Assembly (NCBI GenBank): GCA_937128055.1
Contig: CAKZMC010000150.1
Coordinates: forward strand, 1 to 51,059
Direction: 5' to 3'
Length of the DNA stretch: 51,059 nucleotides
Source: an uncultured Actinomycetes bacterium
GTDB taxonomy: Bacteria > Actinomycetota > Geothermincolia > Geothermincolales > RBG-13-55-18
Made by a program: the position numbers and the translations under genes. The notes beneath the pieces are model-generated. The model had not been told where the DNA came from and searched no databases. It was given only the letters and a program-made list of their open reading frames with translations. Shown piece by piece: positions 6,229 to 20,031 of the stretch. Within the stretch, counting starts at the first letter, position 1; each line of letters starts with the position of its first letter.

Positions 6229-7377
6229 TTGAGGATCGGGATTCCCCGCGCGCTCATGTTCTACCGCTATTACCCGTTCCTGAAGACCTTCGTGGAGGGA
6301 TGCGGCCACGAGGTGGTGACCTCTCCGCCCACCGACCTGAGGATCCTGGAGAGGGGGACGGAGTGCTGCGTGGACGACATCTGCGTGGCGGTCAAGGCCT
6401 TCTTTGGGCACGTGGATTACCTCAAGGACGGGGTGGATGCCCTGCTGGTCCCCCGCCTGGTGAGCGTGGAGAAGCGGGAATACGACACCTTCACCTGCCC
6501 CAAGCTCATCGCCGCGCCGGACATGGTGCGCTTCTTTCCCCACCGCCCCCCCTTGCTCCTCGAGTGGGTCCTGGACGTGAAAAGGGCCCCCTGGTGGTGG
6601 GGATGCCTGAGGCTCGCGGTGCAGCTCGGGGCGATGCCGTGCCGCGCTTACGAGGCCTATCGCGCGGCGCGGAAGGAGCAGGCAAGGTACGAGGAGCTCC
6701 TGCAGGGCGGCTTGCTCCCGCACGAGGCCCTGGAGGAGATGGCGGGCGTTTCATGTACGCCGGCAAGCGGGGGGAGAAAGGGCGGGCCACCGGGAGGCAG
6801 CGGCATGAGCGGGGCGGCTGGCGCGCGGGGGGGCCGCGGTATGGTCGGAGAAAGCCGGGCGGGGGCTGGTGGCCGTCGCCTGTGCCCGGCGCGGGGGGAC
6901 TCTCCGGGCGGACTCACCGTGGCGGTGGTAGGGCACCCGTACCTGCTGGGTGACCAGTTGCTCAACAAGAACCTCATTCTCTGGTTGCGGCAGAGCGGGG
7001 CTACCGTGCTGGCCAACACCGCCTTCGGCGCGGAGGAGCTGGAACGGGAGGCAAACCTGCTGCCCGACCTCTCCTGGACTTACGAGAGGGAGCTCCTGGC
7101 GGCCGCTTCTCTCTTCACCAGGCGCGAGGAGGTCGACGGCGTCGTCTACCTCACCAGCTTCGGCTGCGGCCCCGATTCCATGGTCATGGAGATGTTCAAG
7201 CGCGAGATGCTTCCCTCTGGGGGCAAGGCCTTCATGGAGGTGGTGCTCGACGAGCACAGCGCGGAGTCGGGGGTGCGCACGAGGGCGGAGGCCTTCGTCG
7301 ACATGCTGCGCTACCGCGAGGCGAAGAGGGCAGGCGAAAGCGCAGGGGCGGGCGCGGGGACGGGAGGAAGGGCGTGA
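6229..7377 (+). CDS. DUF2229 / CoA-enzyme-activase-associated protein
   Basis: A 382-residue protein of the DUF2229 type (COG3580-like), related to the components that accompany 2-hydroxyacyl-CoA dehydratases and their ATP-dependent activases. The N-terminus IGIPRALMFYRYYPF and the cysteine cluster CCVDDIC near residue 47 are diagnostic. The C-terminal third contains VVYLTSFGCGPDS and DEHSAESGVRTR, typical of HgdB/HgdC-like Fe-S subunits. Between them, roughly residues 178-225, is an unusually Gly/Arg/Ala-rich linker absent from ordinary members. The start is TTG at 6229, eight bases after a strong GGGGAGGTG. The next gene starts inside its stop codon (GTGA overlap), showing translational coupling. 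The BadF-type ATPase is not encoded here. Confidence 0.8.
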   Translation: MRIGIPRALMFYRYYPFLKTFVEGCGHEVVTSPPTDLRILERGTECCVDDICVAVKAFFGHVDYLKDGVDALLVPRLVSVEKREYDTFTCPKLIAAPDMVRFFPHRPPLLLEWVLDVKRAPWWWGCLRLAVQLGAMPCRAYEAYRAARKEQARYEELLQGGLLPHEALEEMAGVSCTPASGGRKGGPPGGSGMSGAAGARGGRGMVGESRAGAGGRRLCPARGDSPGGLTVAVVGHPYLLGDQLLNKNLILWLRQSGATVLANTAFGAEELEREANLLPDLSWTYERELLAAASLFTRREEVDGVVYLTSFGCGPDSMVMEMFKREMLPSGGKAFMEVVLDEHSAESGVRTRAEAFVDMLRYREAKRAGESAGAGAGTGGRA

Positions 7378-8558
7378 GGATAGCCTTTCCCCACATGGGG
7401 AACGCCTACATACCGCTACGGGCCCTGGTGGAGAGCCTGGGCGCGGAGGCGGTGGTGCCGGAGAGGCCCAACGCGGAAACCCTGAAGAGAGGCCTCCTTC
7501 ACGCCCCTGAGTTCGCCTGCCTCCCCTTCAAGGTCACCCTCGGAGATTGCCTCAACGCCCTCGACCGTGGCGCGGATACGCTGGCCATGGTATGCGGTAT
7601 GTGGGCCTGCCGCTTCGGGAACTACGGCCGGGTGCAGCACATGATCCTCAAGGACCTGGGACACGAGTTCGATTCTGTGCTCATCGGGAGGGAGAACGTG
7701 GGCGAGGTGGCGGAGAAGTTCCGCTCCGGCCTGGGGCCGGGCGTCTTCCGCAGGCTCCCGGGGGCGCTGGCCATCTTCCGCTGCAAGGCGGCTGCGGTGG
7801 ACGAGATGGAGCGCCTGGCGCGGTGGGCGCGCCCCCGGGAGGAAAAATATGGCAGCACCGATGCCCTGCTCTTCCGGTACCTGGATTTGCTCGACGGGGC
7901 GGATTCCCTCCGCCAGGTGCGCGAGTTGCGCGGGAGCTTCCGCGATGAGCTTCTGTCCCGGCCCCTGGACGGCGAGGATGGCGTCACCAGGATCCGCCTC
8001 GTGGGCGAGCTTTACGTGCTGCTGGAGCCCTCCCTAAACTGCGACCTGCTGCGGCGGCTGGGCAGCGTCTTCCGCGTGGAGGCGCACCCGGTGCTCTCCA
8101 CCTACCGCTGGCTGTTGGGCCCGTTGTGGCTGGACCCGCGCATCCAGCTTCACGGCTATCGCGCTCGCAGGCGCACGCGCCCCTACCTCCCCTACGTGCT
8201 GGGCGGCGAGGAGCACATGACCATCAGCGGTATCCTGGACGCGCGCCGGCAGGGCTTCGACGGGGTCATCCACGCCTACCCCCTCACCTGCATGCCTGAG
8301 AACATCTGCCGCACCGTCATACCGAGCATAACCGCCCGCACCCGCCTGCCCCACCTGGGGCTGTGCTTCGACGAGCATACCTCGCCCGCGGGCGTTGAGA
8401 CCAGGCTGGAGGCTTTCCTGGATCTGGTGAGGGACCGGAGGAGGATCCAGACGGGAGGCCTTGGCGAGCAGGGCGATGTCATGGCCGGCGACGTATCGGC
8501 TGCCGCGGCTGCGGGTGGGGGCCGCTACCCGCTTTGCCGCAGCGGCGCCGGCGGTTAG
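7374..8558 (+). CDS. 2-hydroxyacyl-CoA dehydratase (HgdB)-like protein, COG3581 type
   Basis: A 394-residue partner of the preceding DUF2229 protein. Near the N-terminus it has FPHMGNAY and LHAPEFACLPFK, then MVCGMWACRFGNYGRVQ, and near the C-terminus YPLTCMPENI and LCFDEHTSPAGVETRLEAF. The conserved cysteines (in FACLP, VCGMWACRFG and LTCMPE) are suitable for an Fe-S cluster shared with the partner. Families of this kind act around the activation of radical acyl-CoA dehydratases or benzoyl-CoA-reductase-like enzymes. The precise reaction is unknown. It starts at GTG 7374 overlapping the previous stop by four bases. The last 35 residues are low-complexity Ala/Gly. Confidence 0.8.
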   Translation: MRIAFPHMGNAYIPLRALVESLGAEAVVPERPNAETLKRGLLHAPEFACLPFKVTLGDCLNALDRGADTLAMVCGMWACRFGNYGRVQHMILKDLGHEFDSVLIGRENVGEVAEKFRSGLGPGVFRRLPGALAIFRCKAAAVDEMERLARWARPREEKYGSTDALLFRYLDLLDGADSLRQVRELRGSFRDELLSRPLDGEDGVTRIRLVGELYVLLEPSLNCDLLRRLGSVFRVEAHPVLSTYRWLLGPLWLDPRIQLHGYRARRRTRPYLPYVLGGEEHMTISGILDARRQGFDGVIHAYPLTCMPENICRTVIPSITARTRLPHLGLCFDEHTSPAGVETRLEAFLDLVRDRRRIQTGGLGEQGDVMAGDVSAAAAAGGGRYPLCRSGAGG

Positions 8559-9983: not shown

Positions 9984-10460
9984 ATGGAGAAAGAGATGCT
10001 GGTGCGGGTTGTCGAGCAGGCTTGCCCTTTTGCGCACCACGCGAGCATGCGCGTGGCCGAGCTCGACGAGGATAAAGGCAGTGTGACGCTGGCCATGGGG
10101 GACGACCCCGCCAACCTCAACGCCTTCGGCCTGGTACACGCCGGCGCCATCTGCGGGCTGGCGGAGACCGCGGGCGGCATGGCCATCATGCGGCATTTTG
10201 ACCCCCGGGAGACGCTGGTCCTCAATACCGTCTTCAACATAAGGTACGTACATCCGCTCCGGGGCGAGCTGAGGTGCACCGCCCGCGTGGTGGAGGAAGA
10301 AGCCCGCGCGCTGCGGGAGGACTTCGAGCGGGAGGGAAGGGCGGACAAGGCCATGGACCTCAAGGTCTTCGGCTCCTCGAGGGTACTGGTGGCGCAGGCC
10401 CAGGCTACCTACCGCCTAATCAGGACCCCCGAAGAATACCGCAGGTACTTCGGTGCGTGA
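9984..10460 (+). CDS. Hotdog-fold thioesterase (PaaI/YiiD-C-like)
   Basis: A 158-residue single-domain hotdog protein, probably an acyl-CoA thioesterase. The segment NAFGLVHAGAICGLAETAGG is the hotdog helix with the catalytic-type Asn/His and acidic residue. It is followed by strand phrases NIRYVHPLRGELRCTARVV and VAQAQATYRL. The usual length for the family is 130-160 residues. The start ATG has GAGGGGTGA upstream. About 30 residues between the last strands (EDFEREGRADKAMDLKVF) form an insertion not usual in PaaI proteins. Substrate unknown. It is followed by a 413-base gap before the FmdE-type locus and is probably a separate transcript. Confidence 0.85.
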   Translation: MEKEMLVRVVEQACPFAHHASMRVAELDEDKGSVTLAMGDDPANLNAFGLVHAGAICGLAETAGGMAIMRHFDPRETLVLNTVFNIRYVHPLRGELRCTARVVEEEARALREDFEREGRADKAMDLKVFGSSRVLVAQAQATYRLIRTPEEYRRYFGA

Positions 10461-10679: not shown

Positions 10680-10873
10680 CGGGGTTGAAATCTCTCCCGG
10701 GGCTGTGGTAGTTTTATCCCCGCAAGGAAGGAGAGTCATGAAAAGCCGGGCGAGAAGTCCGGATCACCCTCTCTCCTTGGTACCAGGTCCTTTGGTGGTA
10801 ATAGGGGCCAAGAAGGCCTTTATAAGGAAGGTCTTCCTGGCCCTTTCAATTTGGGGAAAGAGAGGGGCGAGAG
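10680..10873 (+). promoter_or_regulatory. Structured leader with alternative hairpins (attenuator or riboswitch candidate)
   Basis: GGGCCA at 10805-10810 can pair with TGGCCC at 10838-10843 to make a long hairpin followed by TTTCAATTT, a weak terminator. The same GGGCC can instead fold locally on GGCC (10815-10818) around an AAGAA loop. Upstream, GGAGAG and CTCTCC arms enclose an inner CCGG/CCGG hairpin. A well-placed ribosome site at 10727-10734 precedes an ATG at 10738 that opens a 76-codon frame (10738-10968) running through the hairpin and 95 bases into the next gene; it could be a leader peptide. The 14-mer GGGCCAAGAAGGCC recurs in the second leader at 12774-12787. From 10461 to 10680 I see nothing. 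Confidence 0.4.
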
Positions 10874-11593
10874 ATGAACGCTTGGACCGTCGTGGCATGG
10901 CTCGCGGCGATGCCCGCTTCCGCCCTTGCCTGCTCAGCGTTGGCATTGTGGCCGCTGAGGGGCAGTAGGGCAGCCGCGATGGTCGCCGTCCCCGCCTCGC
11001 TCGCATTCCTCGCCGCCGGATTGACACGGGTCTCGGCAGGCCTGCGGCGGGCCACGGGCGCCTGTCTACAGGGTGGATGTACGGCGGCGTTCGTGGTCAT
11101 GGGAGCGGCAATCTTCGCCGCAGGCTTCTATCTGCTGGAGGGAGAGGGAAAGGTTGGGAAGGAGATAGGGGCGTGGAGGGGGACGGCATTGAGATGGGCC
11201 CCCGTCTTCGCTGCCTCTTCCCTACTGCTTCTGGTGGGGATGCTCTTCCTGGGGGCTGTCGTGCCACGGGCGGAGGAGCTCTCCTGGACGTGGGAGTGGG
11301 GCGCCGCCATAGCTGCGCTGGCAGCCGGCACCGTCTTCTACCTGCTATCCGGGAGGCTACCAGCGGAAAGGGTGGAGGAGGCCAGGAGGACAGCGGGACA
11401 ACTCTTGCTCACGGGAGCGCCCTCCTTCCTCCTTGGCTCAGTGTTCGCCCATCGGCTCCTGAGCCCGGATGGCGAGAGTTTCTCCCCTCTATTCTTACCC
11501 TCGCCCTGGGCCATGACCGCCCTCGTGGCGGGGGCGGCGGCGCTCGTAGGCATCGGCGCCATGGCCGCTCGCCGCAGGGGCCTGCTCGGGTGA
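10874..11593 (+). CDS. Polytopic membrane protein of the ExbB/FmdE locus
   Basis: A 239-residue membrane protein with about six hydrophobic helices (near residues 3-25, 35-52, 70-88, 108-132, 141-160 and 210-232) joined by short charged loops. No catalytic motif is visible. Its place directly before an ExbB-type subunit and a DUF2149 subunit suggests a membrane component of the same complex. In methanogens a DUF2162 predicted transporter often accompanies DUF2149 and MotA/TolQ/ExbB genes; whether this protein is a distant counterpart cannot be decided by eye. The ATG at 10874 has GAGGGGCGAGAG just upstream. The next gene follows after 93 bases with its own strong ribosome site. Confidence 0.75.
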   Translation: MNAWTVVAWLAAMPASALACSALALWPLRGSRAAAMVAVPASLAFLAAGLTRVSAGLRRATGACLQGGCTAAFVVMGAAIFAAGFYLLEGEGKVGKEIGAWRGTALRWAPVFAASSLLLLVGMLFLGAVVPRAEELSWTWEWGAAIAALAAGTVFYLLSGRLPAERVEEARRTAGQLLLTGAPSFLLGSVFAHRLLSPDGESFSPLFLPSPWAMTALVAGAAALVGIGAMAARRRGLLG

Positions 11594-11686
11594 GTCTACG
11601 ATTCCCGGGCCGGGAAGAGAGCGTATGGGCGAGAAGGCAGGCGGTGACTGAGGTAAACGCATGAGGAGAGCGGAGGAGAGAGCGAG

Positions 11687-12358
11687 ATGTACCTGGCGGG
11701 CAGCGAGTGGTTGGTGAGGATACTACACATCGTGTCCCAATGCTTTCTGGTCCCGGTGATAATAGCGCTCCTGGCTTTCTTCGCCCATGCCCTACTGGAA
11801 CTGGGGATGCTGGCGGCGGAGTCCAGGTCTCGCAGGCGTGTGACCTCTGCCCAGATCGGTGAGCTGATGCAGGCCATGCAGGCCACGGGGGATGTGAGGA
11901 GGGCCCTGGAGGGACCCTACCTATCCGGGGGGCACAAGGAAGTGTTGGCGCGCTTTCTCGCGCTCGGCCACCTAGGAAGCGCCTCGCGGAGGGCTTATGC
12001 CCGCAGGCTGCTGGAAGAAGAGGAGCATAAGCGGGCACGCTCACTGGACAGGACGGAGATGGTGGTCAAACTGGGGCCGGCCCTGGGTCTCATGGGTACG
12101 CTCATCCCTCTTGGCCCGGGACTCGCGGCGCTCAGCAGCGGCGACGTGAGAGGCCTGGCCCAGGCGGTGATCATCGCCTTCGACACCACGGTGGTGGGGC
12201 TTGCCGCGGGCGGAGTCGCCTTCTTGGTGTCCAGGGTGCGCAGGCGCTGGTACGACGACTACATGTCCACCCTGGAAACGGCGACCGAAGGCATACTGGA
12301 GGTCCTTGAAGATGCTGAGAAAGAGAAGGTACTTGCGGGCTGGAGAGGAGGATCTTGA
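11687..12358 (+). CDS. MotA/TolQ/ExbB proton-channel family protein
   Basis: A 223-residue ion-channel subunit. The first helix lies at about residues 14-38 and a cytoplasmic domain follows (about 40-120). Then comes the family signature VVKLGPALGLMGTLIPLGPGL with the following AQAVIIAFDTTVVGLAAGG helix, the two pore-lining segments of ExbB/TolQ/MotA proteins. These use proton or sodium flow to drive work on a partner across the membrane. Small and hydroxyl residues (T in GTL, T in FDTT) occupy the positions typical of the pore. ATG 11687 follows GGAGGAGAG. Its 3' end overlaps the DUF2149 gene by 47 bases, which indicates tight coupling of the two subunits. Confidence 0.9.
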   Translation: MYLAGSEWLVRILHIVSQCFLVPVIIALLAFFAHALLELGMLAAESRSRRRVTSAQIGELMQAMQATGDVRRALEGPYLSGGHKEVLARFLALGHLGSASRRAYARRLLEEEEHKRARSLDRTEMVVKLGPALGLMGTLIPLGPGLAALSSGDVRGLAQAVIIAFDTTVVGLAAGGVAFLVSRVRRRWYDDYMSTLETATEGILEVLEDAEKEKVLAGWRGGS

Positions 12359-12707
12359 CCCCCTGTCGGGGGTGGCCAACCTGGTTGACGCCATGCTGGT
12401 CTTCGCCTGCGGCCTGATCGTGGTCCTCATCCTCTCCTGGAACCTGCACAGCATCCTGTTGAGCGATATGACGGAAGCGGAGAAGGAGGAGGTCATGCGG
12501 ACCATCTCCAGGGTGGTGCAGGTGAGGCAGGGAGAGGAGCTCGACCGGCTCCCGCGTCTGGCACAGGGTCAGGGAGAGGGCTACCAGGAGATGGGAACCG
12601 TGTACATGGACCCCAGGACGGGCAAGCTCATCATGGTGACGGGATACGAGCGAGAGAACGGCAGGACGGAAGAGCGGCCCCCGGGAGGGGGAGAGCAAGG
12701 GCAATAA
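12312..12707 (+). CDS. DUF2149 protein (ExbD/TolR-like partner)
   Basis: A 131-residue protein starting at ATG 12312, eight bases after a perfect GGAGGT that lies inside the ExbB gene. The N-terminal basic patch MLRKRR is followed by DPLSGVANLVDAMLVFACGL, the DUF2149 signature: a short cytoplasmic segment and one membrane helix with an aspartate at its start (LVDAM). This topology is that of ExbD/TolR, where such an aspartate takes part in proton transfer. The rest (about residues 45-131) would be extracytoplasmic. It contains a short YQEMGTVYMDPRTGKLIMV strand pair and an acidic/Gly tail. Together with the ExbB subunit it should form an energised motor. Confidence 0.85.
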   Translation: MLRKRRYLRAGEEDLDPLSGVANLVDAMLVFACGLIVVLILSWNLHSILLSDMTEAEKEEVMRTISRVVQVRQGEELDRLPRLAQGQGEGYQEMGTVYMDPRTGKLIMVTGYERENGRTEERPPGGGEQGQ

Positions 12708-12919
12708 CCAGAAAAGAGAGGCCCCGGTGAAGGGGTGTCTCGTTCCGAGAGCTCAAGGTCCAGAGTTCCTACAGGGCCAAGAAGGCCCGGGATCCCCGGG
12801 AAGGGGAGGCCGGGCCTTTTGATGTTCGAGGGGAGGTGATGTGGTTGACGCGATGATTGCATGGTTGGAGCGGGAATGACGGTCTTCCGTGAATCGGACG
12901 AAGGAGGTGAGAGTGGCTT
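12708..12919 (+). promoter_or_regulatory. Second leader with terminator/antiterminator hairpins
   Basis: GGCCCGG (12784-12790) pairs with CCGGGCC (12810-12816), followed by TTTTG: a good intrinsic terminator between the DUF2149 and FmdE genes. The 5' arm can instead pair in GGGCC-AAGAA-GGCCC (12774-12788), which would break the terminator. The 14 bases GGGCCAAGAAGGCC are identical to those in the leader at 10805-10818. A further hairpin GAGAGGCCCC/GGGG..TCTC lies at about 12714-12742. The strong AAGGAGGTGA at 12901-12910 then drives the FmdE gene. The arrangement looks like conditional read-through. Confidence 0.45.
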
Positions 12920-15900
12920 ATGGACGGTAGAAGCGGGCTGAAGCCCGGCAAGCTGATCGGCTTTCTGCTGGTATTCTCGGCATGCCTACTAGTGGTCCTG
13001 GCCATGGGAGGAAAAGCCGAGGCCGATGACTCAGGAGGAGTGGGGGGCCAGGGCCAAGGTCCTGCCGTGTCCTCCCTGGAGGGCGACGGAGGCGCCTTGG
13101 AGCCTGCCCCGGAGGATAATGCGGTGCCTCCTGCCGTTCAGGAGAAGGGCATGCTGGAAGGGGGGTTGGCCGGCGACGGAGTGGAGGCGGCCGACAAGGA
13201 CGACGATGCCGCGGTGTTGGGAGATGGGAAGGCCGGTGGAGGAGGGGGACCAGACACCACCGCCGCCGGAGGCGCCGTTGACCCCAGGATAGGGGTGAAG
13301 GTCGGCTTCGAATACGAGGACGATGCCTCGAATGTCAACCCCGTGGTCACGGTGTACGATAAGGCGGGAGATCCCATACCGGTCCCCAAGGTATATAACC
13401 CGTTGTACAGCACCTACGAGCTGTCTTTCGACTATGCCGTGGATCCGCAGAACCCCGTGTTTGTGGTGAAGGTGACCGCCCCCGGGTACCTGCCCGTGGA
13501 AAGGGACGTCACCTTGTACCGCAATGACAGTGACCCTGATGATCCCAACTGGTACGGGTTCCTGCAGGTCACCTTGGAGGCTACGCCCGCCTACAGGCTG
13601 GGCCGGGAGATGGCCAGGAAAGCCGACGAGAAACTCGATTTCGGCGCATCCCAGGGCGTGCTGTGCATTACAACAGCGGGGGGCGTCTACTTCCTGGGAA
13701 CGAGCAGCGAGGACGCCCTCGAGGGAGTGCTCAACCACGCGCGTGGCCTGATCGCTTTCGGGGAGGGCAGCCTCCTCGCACTGCGCAGGACCCGCTACGA
13801 GCCTCTTGACTTCGCTTTCGTGGCGAAGAAGGGTGGCGACCTTGTCATGGCTTTCTTCCGCGAGGGAAACGCCGGGCCCCTCTACGTGGGGTCGGTTTCC
13901 AGACACCTCATGGGCGAGGCGCGGTGGGAGCAGCTGGTGGCCGCGCTGGGGCGGGCGGATGCTTTCGCGTTCGCAAGTCTTGCCAACGCATGGGCGGAAG
14001 GGCTTTCCACCGATGTCCTGAACTCCGCCGCCTTTCATGGCCATCTATGCCTGGGCACCATAAGCGGTTTCGCCATGGTGGAGGTGCTTTTAAAGTACTT
14101 CCCTCCCGGCACCGTCGGCGAGGGGATCGAGAGCACCAGTTACAAGGTCCTGGGGGTACCCGGTGGCTCCGACGACGACGTCTTCCAGTGGGTGATGGAT
14201 GCCACTCCCGGGAAGAGGGCTTATGTGGGCCGCGACAGCGAGGAAGATTCCAACATGGTAGGGTTCCTCAGGTGGAACTCCTCCACCAATACCGGCACGC
14301 TGGCCATTATGAGGTACGACCTGGTGGCCCTGGCTTCCGCCTTTCAGGCGGAGACGGACATACGGGTGAGGGAGGACTGCCTCTCGGAGCTCCACTTCAA
14401 CGCCTGGCTGGTCAACAGGCTCATGGTCCTTCCTGAGTCCCTCGTAGAGTTGGTGCTGGCCCTGGACGGCCTGACGCGGGACGAGTGCGATCACCTCACC
14501 GGGGGCGTTTCCTCCTCCACCGTGGAGACCGCATGGGGTCTGGACATGGAATACATCTCGATATTGAGAGGGTCGGGGCACATCACCGATATCACCGATT
14601 CCGTGAAGATGGCGATGGGCTCCGCCGCCCCCGCCTCGCAAAGCCCAGCCCTTACCCCGGAGCAGATAAAGGGGATCGGTCGCGATGCCGCGCTCCTAGC
14701 GGAGCAGCTCTTCCTCCGGGAGTTGGGTATCCGCCTGGAGAAAGACGACCCCCGGCTATACGCCCTCACCAGTTCCGGTTTCGCCCGCATCCACGGCCTC
14801 TCCACAACCATGGCCTGGGACGGGGTCTTCGATGTGCTGGGCTCCCGCTTGAGCCGGAAGACCCTGCTTCCCGTTCACTCCTCGCTTCTGGGGACCCTGT
14901 GGTTCAGCTTTGCGCTTGCCAGGGACGGGAAGCTGTACGCCGTCTACATCCGCTACGATTCCGCCACCGGGCAGTTGGTGGTGGGGAGAGCCTCGGACGG
15001 CAAGGCGGTGCAGGACATCGGCCCGGAGACCCTCAACGATAATAACAAGCTCCGTGTGGCCAGACCGGTGTTCGGCAGCAGCTTTAACGGCATACAGAGC
15101 ATCGCCAACGCCATGAGGTACGACCCCCCTTACGAGATGGTGCTGGCCTACCTCTTCCACAACCACGTGTGCCCGGGGGTCTCCCCCTCCTACCTTATCG
15201 CGGACATGGTCTACAGGGAGTTCCCCCTGGGCGAGGACGAGAGGTACATCTACATTACCACCGTCAACTACTGCAAGGAGGACGGCCTCATATTCCTGCT
15301 GGGGCTTTCGGCGGGAAGCGGCAGCTATTATAACTTCAGGTTGAAGGAGGGGGACGACACTAGGTCACAGGTCATCCCCGGGGGCAACCTGGAGGGCATA
15401 CTCATAAGGTGGGACGACGCGCTCGGTGTCGGTGAGGCGGTGGTAATAAGCTTCGCCTGGCCACAGTGGAACACCCAGGGCCTCACGACCAACGAGGCGC
15501 GGAGGGAAGCCCAGATAGGCGGGTTTATCCAGTACTACAAGGGGATCGTGAGCCCCTTGATGACGGCCGCTCCCCAGGTGGCCAAGGAGGCGGTCAAGTG
15601 GATCACCCGGGAGGAGTTGGACTCCATCCTCTCGTGGTCTCCGGATGACCCGCGGGGGAACGTGCTGCAGTTCGTCATGGGGCTTCCGGACCGCAGCCGC
15701 TCGGACCTCATCCCGGATGAAGCGGGTCAGGGCGATGGGGAAGCGGAAGGCGGTCCGCAGCCTGCCGAGATGGTAGCGGGCGAGGAAGGCATACCATCCT
15801 CGGAACCCTCTTCCGGAGCCGCCAGGGTACGGCGCGCTGTTTACCGCGTGCCAGGGACGACTCCCCGAACCGTGGAGGAGGCAAACCCCGAGGTTTCCGG

Positions 15901-16108
15901 CAACCCGGCTCTTGAGCCTGAGACGGAAACCCCTTCCGCCTCGGAAGGCGACGTGGAAGAGAAGATAGAGGGAAGGGCCTACGAGGTGGAGGAAGTGGGA
16001 AGCGAGGAGCGTGCCGGGAACTACCTGGCCCTGGCCCTGGGTGGGCTTGCGGCCATGCTGATCATGGGGGTTGCCGGCTTCTACCTGGCGAAGAAGAGAG
16101 CGCTTTGA
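12920..16108 (+). CDS. Surface-anchored protein with two FmdE domains
   Basis: A 1062-residue protein. A signal peptide (hydrophobic residues 13-30) is followed by a disordered Gly/Asp-rich linker to about 120 and a beta-rich carboxypeptidase-regulatory-like domain near 125-215. The first FmdE region starts at FHGHLCLG (372-379); the second starts at FHNHVCPG (746-753). The FHGHxC motif binds a metal ion, zinc in structurally known FmdE proteins, which are named from molybdenum formylmethanofuran dehydrogenase loci. An acidic, Pro/Glu-rich stalk (about 930-1030) leads to a C-terminal helix (about 1035-1055) ending in KKRAL. The bulk is therefore outside the cell and anchored. It follows the ExbB and DUF2149 subunits, which could power it. 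Confidence 0.85.
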   Translation: MDGRSGLKPGKLIGFLLVFSACLLVVLAMGGKAEADDSGGVGGQGQGPAVSSLEGDGGALEPAPEDNAVPPAVQEKGMLEGGLAGDGVEAADKDDDAAVLGDGKAGGGGGPDTTAAGGAVDPRIGVKVGFEYEDDASNVNPVVTVYDKAGDPIPVPKVYNPLYSTYELSFDYAVDPQNPVFVVKVTAPGYLPVERDVTLYRNDSDPDDPNWYGFLQVTLEATPAYRLGREMARKADEKLDFGASQGVLCITTAGGVYFLGTSSEDALEGVLNHARGLIAFGEGSLLALRRTRYEPLDFAFVAKKGGDLVMAFFREGNAGPLYVGSVSRHLMGEARWEQLVAALGRADAFAFASLANAWAEGLSTDVLNSAAFHGHLCLGTISGFAMVEVLLKYFPPGTVGEGIESTSYKVLGVPGGSDDDVFQWVMDATPGKRAYVGRDSEEDSNMVGFLRWNSSTNTGTLAIMRYDLVALASAFQAETDIRVREDCLSELHFNAWLVNRLMVLPESLVELVLALDGLTRDECDHLTGGVSSSTVETAWGLDMEYISILRGSGHITDITDSVKMAMGSAAPASQSPALTPEQIKGIGRDAALLAEQLFLRELGIRLEKDDPRLYALTSSGFARIHGLSTTMAWDGVFDVLGSRLSRKTLLPVHSSLLGTLWFSFALARDGKLYAVYIRYDSATGQLVVGRASDGKAVQDIGPETLNDNNKLRVARPVFGSSFNGIQSIANAMRYDPPYEMVLAYLFHNHVCPGVSPSYLIADMVYREFPLGEDERYIYITTVNYCKEDGLIFLLGLSAGSGSYYNFRLKEGDDTRSQVIPGGNLEGILIRWDDALGVGEAVVISFAWPQWNTQGLTTNEARREAQIGGFIQYYKGIVSPLMTAAPQVAKEAVKWITREELDSILSWSPDDPRGNVLQFVMGLPDRSRSDLIPDEAGQGDGEAEGGPQPAEMVAGEEGIPSSEPSSGAARVRRAVYRVPGTTPRTVEEANPEVSGNPALEPETETPSASEGDVEEKIEGRAYEVEEVGSEERAGNYLALALGGLAAMLIMGVAGFYLAKKRAL

Positions 16109-18451: not shown

Positions 18452-18526
18452 TGGTGGAGATGAGCGGATTCGAACCGCCGACCTCCTGCTTGCAAGGCAG
18501 GCGCTCTCCCGCTGAGCTACATCCCC
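18452..18526 (-). tRNA. tRNA-Ala (anticodon UGC)
   Basis: Read leftward, the 75 bases fold as a full cloverleaf. The acceptor arm is GGGGATG with CATCTCC, including the G3-U70 wobble that is the alanine identity element. There is a D-arm (GCTC..GAGC), an anticodon arm CCTGC-CTTGCAA-GCAGG with anticodon TGC, a five-base variable loop, and a T-arm with TTCGAAT. The 3' CCA is encoded. Confidence 0.97.
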
Positions 18527-18705: not shown

Positions 18706-20031
18706 TCAGGAGGACTCGCTTTCCCGCCGCTCCCTTGTGAACTGCCAGATTAGGTAAGGAGTATATAAGGCCATCATGCTTCCGATTACCAAGATGATTA
18801 TGGTGGCCGCGTTCACGGCGAGCTTGTCAAGCAACCAGCAGATCACGATGGTGGAGATCGCCGCGCAGCCGAAGAAGATCATCAGGTGCACGCTTAACCT
18901 GGAGATATAGAGGCCGAGGGTGCTGCCCGGTCTCCCCATCTCCGCCTTGGCCATGAGCATGTCCATGCGGTAGATGTCGCTGTCGTCGTACCAGGTCATG
19001 TCCCTGGTCGCTCGCTCCACTTCTTGCGCGGCCTCCACCACCTCCTGCGGGACATGGGAAAGCCGGTCTGTGACACGCGAAAAGAGCTTAGTGATGACTA
19101 TGAAGAGGAATATGGTGCTGCAGAAGATGTACAATATGACGTCATTCCAGGGAGTGCGACCCTTCCTCTCCGGCTCCTTCACCGCCCCCGGAGGCTTGGC
19201 GGCGGAGATGCTATAATTCCAATCCGGCAATACCTCTTGCGAGGCCGCCCAGTATCCCACGTTGTCGTTGTTGGGGTTGTTGGCGGGGGTCACCCAGCCC
19301 GTGACCATCAGCTCCCGGTCCAGCCGCACCATTACGATGGGGGCGTTCCTTTTCCACTGGTTGACGCCTCCTTCGAGCCCGAGATCGCTGCCCCTGCCCG
19401 GCGGGTTCGCGACCCACCCCCCTTGAGGTATGCTCAGCTTTTCCTGCCCCAGGAGGCAGTACTGCGCGTCCCAGGCCTCGTCCGACACGTGCATGGAGGA
19501 GAGCATCACCGGCTTGAAGGCTTCGCCCGGGCGGTCGACATCCGGGGTCGCCTCGCTCTCCACGCGCGCCGTGACGTCAGCGCATATGAGGTCGTCTCCG
19601 GGAGGGTGGAGGGTCGCTGCTCCCTGGACCTGGAGCTGCGACACCGTGCCCGTGTACGAGATCACCAGGTCGTCCCCGTCGATGTTGTAGCTGGCGTCGA
19701 TCTCGCCACCCTGGTAGTATTTGCCATCTTCCCGCATGCAGGGGAGCAGTATCACGGAAGTGCCCCATCCGGACTCAGGCCCGTAGTTGAGGCGGAGATA
19801 GCCGCTCTCGAGATCCAGGGCGGCGTACTGCGGCTGCTTGTTGTCTTTGCAGTATATGATTTCCATCATGCTTCCGCCCTCTCTCACTTTCCAGCCGATG
19901 TAGTCGCGCTGCAGCCATTCGCATCCATCCAGGCAGAGGGAGGATGCCGCCAGCATGAGCAGCGCCGCAAATGACAGAGCCTTTTTACGGCCCGTCCCAT
20001 TCCTGCCCCAGGAGGATGTTCCTGCAGGCAC
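18706..20031 (-). CDS. Membrane-anchored exported protein, unknown function
   Basis: A 441-residue protein with an N-terminal signal segment (ALSFAALLMLAASSLCL, followed by DGC, a possible but imperfect lipobox). An extracytoplasmic region of about 250 residues is rich in beta strands and tryptophan. Its central part (YAALDLESGYLRLNY, ASYNIDGDDLVISYTG, DDLICADVTARVE) resembles lipocalin/carotenoid-isomerase-type hydrolase domains only vaguely. Three membrane helices follow near residues 300-320, 375-397 and 400-425, with a cytoplasmic helical stretch (HVPQEVVEAAQEVERA) between the first two. The GTG start at 20031 has AAGGG upstream. No family recognised, and no operon partner. The gap 20032-20336 upstream shows nothing but a short TTGACCCCC-like repeat fragment near 20080. 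Confidence 0.75.
   Translation of the reverse strand: MPAGTSSWGRNGTGRKKALSFAALLMLAASSLCLDGCEWLQRDYIGWKVREGGSMMEIIYCKDNKQPQYAALDLESGYLRLNYGPESGWGTSVILLPCMREDGKYYQGGEIDASYNIDGDDLVISYTGTVSQLQVQGAATLHPPGDDLICADVTARVESEATPDVDRPGEAFKPVMLSSMHVSDEAWDAQYCLLGQEKLSIPQGGWVANPPGRGSDLGLEGGVNQWKRNAPIVMVRLDRELMVTGWVTPANNPNNDNVGYWAASQEVLPDWNYSISAAKPPGAVKEPERKGRTPWNDVILYIFCSTIFLFIVITKLFSRVTDRLSHVPQEVVEAAQEVERATRDMTWYDDSDIYRMDMLMAKAEMGRPGSTLGLYISRLSVHLMIFFGCAAISTIVICWLLDKLAVNAATIIILVIGSMMALYTPYLIWQFTRERRESESS

Follow-up and report, generated by a model that had tools for sequence, protein, structure and literature searches.

Four adjacent open reading frames lie on the forward strand of the window (the whole stretch of 51,059 nucleotides that was analysed), at positions 10874-11593, 11687-12358, 12312-12707 and 12920-16108, in a host genome that is 99% complete. 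The open reading frames and their Pfam matches confirm the original prediction of four genes in a row, in which the genes for ExbB and DUF2149 share exactly 47 bases (12312-12358). The profile searches proposed there for all four proteins placed ExbB, DUF2149 and FmdE above the cut-off and the DUF2162 match of the first gene below it.

Gene 1 (10874-11593, +) encodes a polytopic membrane protein that is probably a divergent DUF2162 (HmuT-like) protein, an assignment that is not firm. Because the Pfam match to DUF2162 (PF09930) is sub-threshold (E 0.0039; 17.1 bits versus a cut-off of 34.4) and a DUF2162 HMM built without any window sequence gave no match, the name reflects position, weak similarity and topology. 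Position and topology fit the DUF2162 protein that comes first in the operon, and the gene is syntenic with DUF2162 in L004, L032, L190, L211 and other loci. Gene 2 (11687-12358, +) encodes a MotA/TolQ/ExbB channel subunit (HmuU-like; PF01618, 2.4e-9, above cut-off) that matches MotA structures by profile at 2e-4 and in which T138, D166 and T168 are invariant. Gene 3 (12312-12707, +) encodes a DUF2149 ExbD-like subunit with a single transmembrane (TM) segment (HmuV-like; PF09919, 2.6e-19), in which D26 of NLVDAMLV is invariant among 12 diverse homologs; a profile comparison of DUF2149 with solved ExbD gave no match. The polar TM residues of ExbB and DUF2149 are invariant across bacteria and archaea. 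HMMs built without the window recover ExbB (2.3e-79), DUF2149 (1e-46) and the full FmdE protein encoded by the fourth gene (1.3e-258).

A gap of 213 bases, with no overlap and with a terminator-like hairpin, separates the DUF2149 gene from the FmdE gene, which may therefore be a separate transcript. Upstream of gene 1 lies a leader hairpin with GCCAAGAAGGCC (10805-10846, +), and upstream of the FmdE gene a leader/terminator-like hairpin with the same 14-base GGGCCAAGAAGGCC (12774-12822, +). One arm of the hairpin, GCCAMGAAGGCC, has exactly two copies in the 51-kb window, one at each of these places, and exactly two in the 12.3-kb contig of G003 (a genome of the same family) at the same two positions; at locus L005, from a related genome, the element is found at 10197-10208 and 12137-12148. 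Two matches are not unusual by number when one mismatch is allowed, and it is their placement before both units that is notable and hints that the triad and the FmdE gene are controlled together. No known riboswitch was detected by Rfam in the window leaders, even at E 1. Elsewhere in the window, two adjacent genes with matches to DUF2229/HGD-D (2-hydroxyacyl-CoA dehydratase activase type) are located upstream of the operon at 6229-8558. A gene at 18706-20031 (-), adjoined by a tRNA gene (18455-18526), encodes a 441-residue protein that has a signal-like segment at its N-terminus and TM segments at its C-terminus and that matches no Pfam family convincingly.

The surface FmdE protein and its juxtamembrane tag

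Gene 4 (12920-16108, +) encodes a 1062-residue surface protein with PF02663 (1.9e-20) in two stretches. Behind a signal peptide come a tandem pair of units, both of which close with an FmdE core, then a low-complexity linker, an AYEV tag and a TM anchor. The N-terminal signal-like segment is hydrophobic from residue 12 and ends in KAEA/DD, a signal-peptidase-like site, while the C-terminal anchor (16025-16081, +) starts at about residue 1036 and is followed by KKRAL. As all folded parts lie between these two segments, they are predicted to be outside the cell and not in the cytoplasm; the signals, the anchor and the two FmdE stretches thus support, at the level of predicted topology, the extracytoplasmic double-FmdE partner beside ExbB/DUF2149 that had been proposed.

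The two halves, each with a helper region ahead of its FmdE core, are a tandem duplication (residues 205-500 versus 560-900; 244 columns, hhalign probability 99.6, E 7e-24). Core 1 (14033-14248, +; residues 372-443) begins with FHGHLC at residue 372, misses the distal Cys and has GGSDDD in the second Cys position. The PF02663 metal site (HxHxC plus a distal Cys) is present in core 2 (15137-15529, +; about residues 740-870, with approximate ends), which contains FHNHVC at 746 and C785/D788, and H747, H749, C751, C785 and D788 are invariant in seven homologs. Read from the motifs, these correspond to His15, His17, Cys19, Cys55 and Asp58 of the FmdE protein B8FYU2, in whose crystal structure His15, His17, Cys19 and Cys55 are the Zn/Ni ligands (PMC2954224). 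A PDB search with the FmdE protein as a single sequence gave no match although the Pfam match is clear, and an AlphaFold model of residues 560-900 from a single sequence was discarded (mean pLDDT 36). The name FmdE derives from Mo formylmethanofuran dehydrogenase; a role with this enzyme was set aside, as no such gene occurs among the genes read around the operon.

The AYEV tag (15977-15988, +; residues 1020-1023) stands just before the C-terminal TM segment, where the sequence reads GRAYEVEEVG in the window, MRAYEVEEEE in G003 and KAYEV or KSYEV in methanogen FmdE proteins. RAYEVEE plus the TM segment are kept in both the window and G003, whose linkers can scarcely be aligned. The window protein has the features of the methanogen-type surface tandem-FmdE proteins: signal peptide, tandem FmdE, a [KR][AS]YE[VI] tag and a C-terminal TM segment. 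Related tags precede the anchor in CobN-like proteins found beside the same motor (KKAYEV, QKAYEI, PRAYEI, TKAYEL) and in other Clostridia anchors (RVFEMS, QIYELK, QVFEVS). A pattern written after inspection of the data, [AVIQWS][YF][EQ][VILM] within the 40 residues before the TM segment, matched 45 of 46 FmdE proteins, 23 of 27 CobN proteins and 13 of 20 further anchored proteins encoded no more than 600 bp from the motor. Together, 81 of 93 clients match, versus one of 67 anchored control proteins encoded more than 2.5 kb from the motor, with a shuffle expectation of 1.3% and a Fisher p-value (3e-31) that is only a guide, since the pattern is post hoc and the rows are related. Judged by these sequences, unrelated client domains share an [AS]YE[VIL]-like tag just before the C-terminal anchor, and the tag is a candidate docking motif for the motor. 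Methanogen proteins near a motor that carry NAYEL or KAYEI before a C-terminal TM segment were also seen at L144 794-7012, L145 4231-7134 and L150 3730-5664; their domains are PKD, propeller or beta-helix, with none recognised in L145.

The motor module and its partners in other genomes

In Bacteroidota, hmuSTUV encodes a DUF2149 protein, a MotA/TolQ/ExbB protein, a membrane protein and a CobN-like protein, and its expression rises strongly when iron is limiting (PMC10434189). The HmuS protein, which is held in the membrane by a helix at either end, acts as a heme de-chelatase (PMC12583661, PMC13227078). The triad of the window is this hmuTUV-type module, which is known, though uncharacterised, and whose most familiar partner is the CobN-like HmuS (PMC10434189, PMC12583661). 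The triad, or most of it, adjoins CobN-like anchored proteins in Actinomycetota (L004, L032, L033) and Firmicutes (L008, L009, L070, L071, L074-L078, L080), and one of these proteins matches solved HmuS at 2.7e-145. The recurrence of the triad beside CobN across both phyla marks it as a conserved module, in which FmdE takes the place of CobN in the window. The possibility that the FmdE gene of the window adjoins a CobN gene, or what is left of one, was rejected, as tblastn found none in the window and PF02514 has no match in its genome. In the monoderm and archaeal stretches that were read, we noticed no gene for a TonB-dependent receptor next to the module.

A cobalamin riboswitch is present in seven Firmicutes CobN-type loci, mostly just upstream of the operon. 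Those before DUF2162-ExbB-DUF2149-CobN are located at L070 11705-11891, L071 12277-12460, L074 129-418, L075 12208-12401, L076 7845-8307 and L080 8953-9136. Small FmdE genes adjoin CobN-type motor operons at L070 13158-13709, L071 12941-13552 and L075 12848-13462; the L070 and L071 proteins, which were tested, contain a zinc finger, and the L071 and L075 genes come after a family-5 solute-binding ABC transporter. Some Clostridia ExbB/DUF2149 loci have molybdenum/tungsten cofactor riboswitches (L087 18386-18504, L089 1924-2042, L090 2176-2296 and 8446-8565) and exported proteins with weak molybdopterin-binding-domain or Shr heme-interaction domains, and are possibly a cofactor-scavenging version of the motor.

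Homologs of the FmdE client (E<=1e-10) occur in 64 of 152 sampled Methanobacteriota genomes, where some matches are partial, and in one of 396 genomes of the sampled Firmicutes phylum. Within the phylum of the window, only G000 and G003 contain one among 356 genomes. Many archaeal homologs are full-length, with 34-36% identity over 824-885 residues and up to 46%. The original proposal holds up in large part, but the FmdE partner is not a new use of the motor confined to this cell, since these homologs occur in methanogens; the motor module, too, was already known, with CobN as its partner. The proposed neighbourhood survey did bear out that the gene set is conserved together in relatives, namely G003 and many methanogens. 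The triad contig of G003 ends at a ribosome-binding sequence matching the one that the FmdE gene has in the window, which makes it very likely that the genes follow in this order in G003 as well. The FmdE-motor system is rare in the class and is absent from many of its genomes, among them G001, which belongs to the same genus as the window.

The archaeal loci connect the client with metal transport. In L152, L153 and L154, the operon runs FmdE, small TM protein, CbiM, small TM protein, DUF2162, ExbB and DUF2149, with CbiM identified by PF01891 (about 1e-37 to 1.3e-42; two tested). Among 41 archaeal FmdE loci, many on truncated contigs, the motor is present in 17, CbiM in 21, either in 26 and both in 12. 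About a third of the archaeal FmdE genes, several of them on short contigs, have neither in the stretch seen. The original suggestion of an uptake role gains a link to metal uptake from CbiM in these methanogen operons, a link that the window operon itself does not repeat, as neither CbiM nor another transporter lies alongside; the host carries a set of CbiM, CbiN-like and CbiQ-like genes, for a Co/Ni importer, on another contig (CbiN and CbiQ named from their sequences and gene order).

The window and G003 group together in the ExbB tree (100/98); they fall outside the supported archaeal clade, and the window is nearest to bacterial CobN-linked motors. The FmdE-only pairing requires four changes on this tree, three of which are forced by strong branches. 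As the nearest relatives found are archaeal for the client and bacterial for the motor, a recombination of the two is probable; the FmdE tree, which has no root, gives no direction.

Proposed powered metal acquisition and competing explanations

Our favoured reading, which we hold to be probable, is that of a surface system of monoderms with exchangeable clients: an ExbB/ExbD-like motor (DUF2162-ExbB-DUF2149, the hmuTUV arrangement) that here has a tandem-FmdE metal-binding surface client, is driven by ions and hands metal to an importer. The relatives in methane-making archaea that lie beside cobalt/nickel importers point to an energised scavenging of metals in cells that have no outer membrane. 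As to mechanism and ALTERNATIVES, the FmdE units would capture Ni, Co or a related metal outside the cell, on a client that is exported, carried on a flexible linker and held by a single C-terminal helix. The AYEV tag just outside this helix would engage the motor, ion flow through ExbB/DUF2149 would change the state of the client via the tagged helix, and the metal held by the client, most probably Ni or Co, or a metal compound would be passed to a membrane importer. Motor residues and gene order are what suggest the ion coupling, and the handover to an importer is likewise a deduction. Ion-powered metal acquisition in a one-membrane cell is the most likely function, and the metal taken up by the window copy is probably Ni/Co or else a different transition metal. 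According to work cited in PMC7689651, the diderm Helicobacter pylori offers a precedent for nickel uptake energised by ExbB/ExbD.

The main rival, to which we give perhaps one chance in a handful, places the FmdE client in extracytoplasmic tetrapyrrole chemistry together with (de)chelatases of the CobN/HmuS type, with the motor driving an enzyme complex. Metal would be taken from or given to a tetrapyrrole (heme, corrinoid or F430-like), and the lineage of the window would have lost CobN and kept a reduced version. Such a role would accord with the gene order in Methanothermobacter-like genomes (L190, L193, L196), where FmdE comes first, then CobN, then the DUF2162-ExbB-DUF2149 triad; with G003, where the N-terminal part of CobN follows the FmdE gene (HMM 2.6e-38); with the cobalamin riboswitches over CobN-type operons; and with the heme de-chelatase activity of HmuS (PMC12583661). 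However, the nearly complete window genome is without CobN, and CobN is found in only six of the 41 archaeal FmdE loci versus 21 for CbiM. Moreover, the DUF2162 proteins of CobN-linked loci carry a PCPxC motif, G003 excepted, that a comparison of Cys motifs showed to be absent from gene 1 and from the other FmdE-only loci, including the archaeal ones. The FmdE-only form therefore looks like a stable type, with G003 as the exception.

Powered metal acquisition by the FmdE client may be one instance of a wider arrangement. We give slightly less than an even chance to a general, ion-driven system, independent of TonB, in which the DUF2149/ExbB modules of monoderm bacteria and archaea power exchangeable surface proteins that capture metals and cofactors (CobN, FmdE, molybdopterin-domain, heme-domain and others), docked by a common [AS]YE[VIL]-like tag. 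If true, HmuUV of Bacteroidota would act on HmuS and not only on an outer-membrane receptor. We find it improbable that the module is instead a general surface-protein motor unrelated to uptake, whose task would be to move anchored proteins through the cell wall or S-layer, or to unfold or position them there, with FmdE as one of many clients. Surface proteins next to the motor do include Big_2, NosD/beta-helix and PKD/propeller proteins, several of them with the tag, yet the links with FmdE, CobN, SBP5, ECF and riboswitches cluster on metals and cofactors. A chance or operon-neighbour association of a functionally unrelated FmdE protein and motor, for which possible separate transcription units and the rarity of the arrangement in the class might speak, is very improbable and already disfavoured by a linkage repeated in two domains of life, the shared leader element and the shared tag.

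Divergent ExbB/DUF2149 pairs were also observed in G363, of the same phylum, by very large Big_2, MucBP or leucine-rich-repeat surface proteins (L037 5300-17219, L038 4534-11215).

Significance and relation to known systems

TonB-type energised uptake is regarded as a solution to the outer membrane, and an ExbB/ExbD-like motor with exchangeable metal or cofactor surface proteins in one-membrane cells would widen this class. Methanogens need nickel and cobalt in quantity, and the reading bears on how they acquire both. It would also give a function to DUF2149, DUF2162 and the surface FmdE proteins, and it offers a testable docking motif. The protein families and the motor module are already known; for the FmdE client with the motor, the CbiM link and the tag shared across clients, no description outside Bacteroidota was found in the part of the literature that was searched, and they are new to that extent.

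The closest system is hmuSTUV of Bacteroidota, in which the same three-gene motor lies beside a large extracytoplasmic protein that has a membrane helix at each end (PMC10434189, PMC12583661, PMC13227078); the client is FmdE in the window, in contrast to the CobN-like HmuS of the hmu operon. The Methanobacteriota FmdE operons share with the window a homolog of the same architecture, tag and anchor and the same motor. They differ in that cbiM is commonly, though not universally, inside the operon, and in that the window motor belongs to the bacterial side of the ExbB tree. Known PF02663 proteins (2GLZ, 2GVI, 3D00) have the FHGHxC motif, the second Cys and the Asp in common with core 2 (PMC2954224), but they are small, without surface architecture and often equipped with a zinc finger, whereas the gene 4 protein is exported, tandem and anchored. 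With TonB-ExbB-ExbD, TolQR and MotAB, the window shares an ExbB-family channel and a single-TM subunit with an invariant TM Asp; it differs from them in a DUF2149 subunit without sequence match to solved ExbD and in having no identified outer membrane partner.
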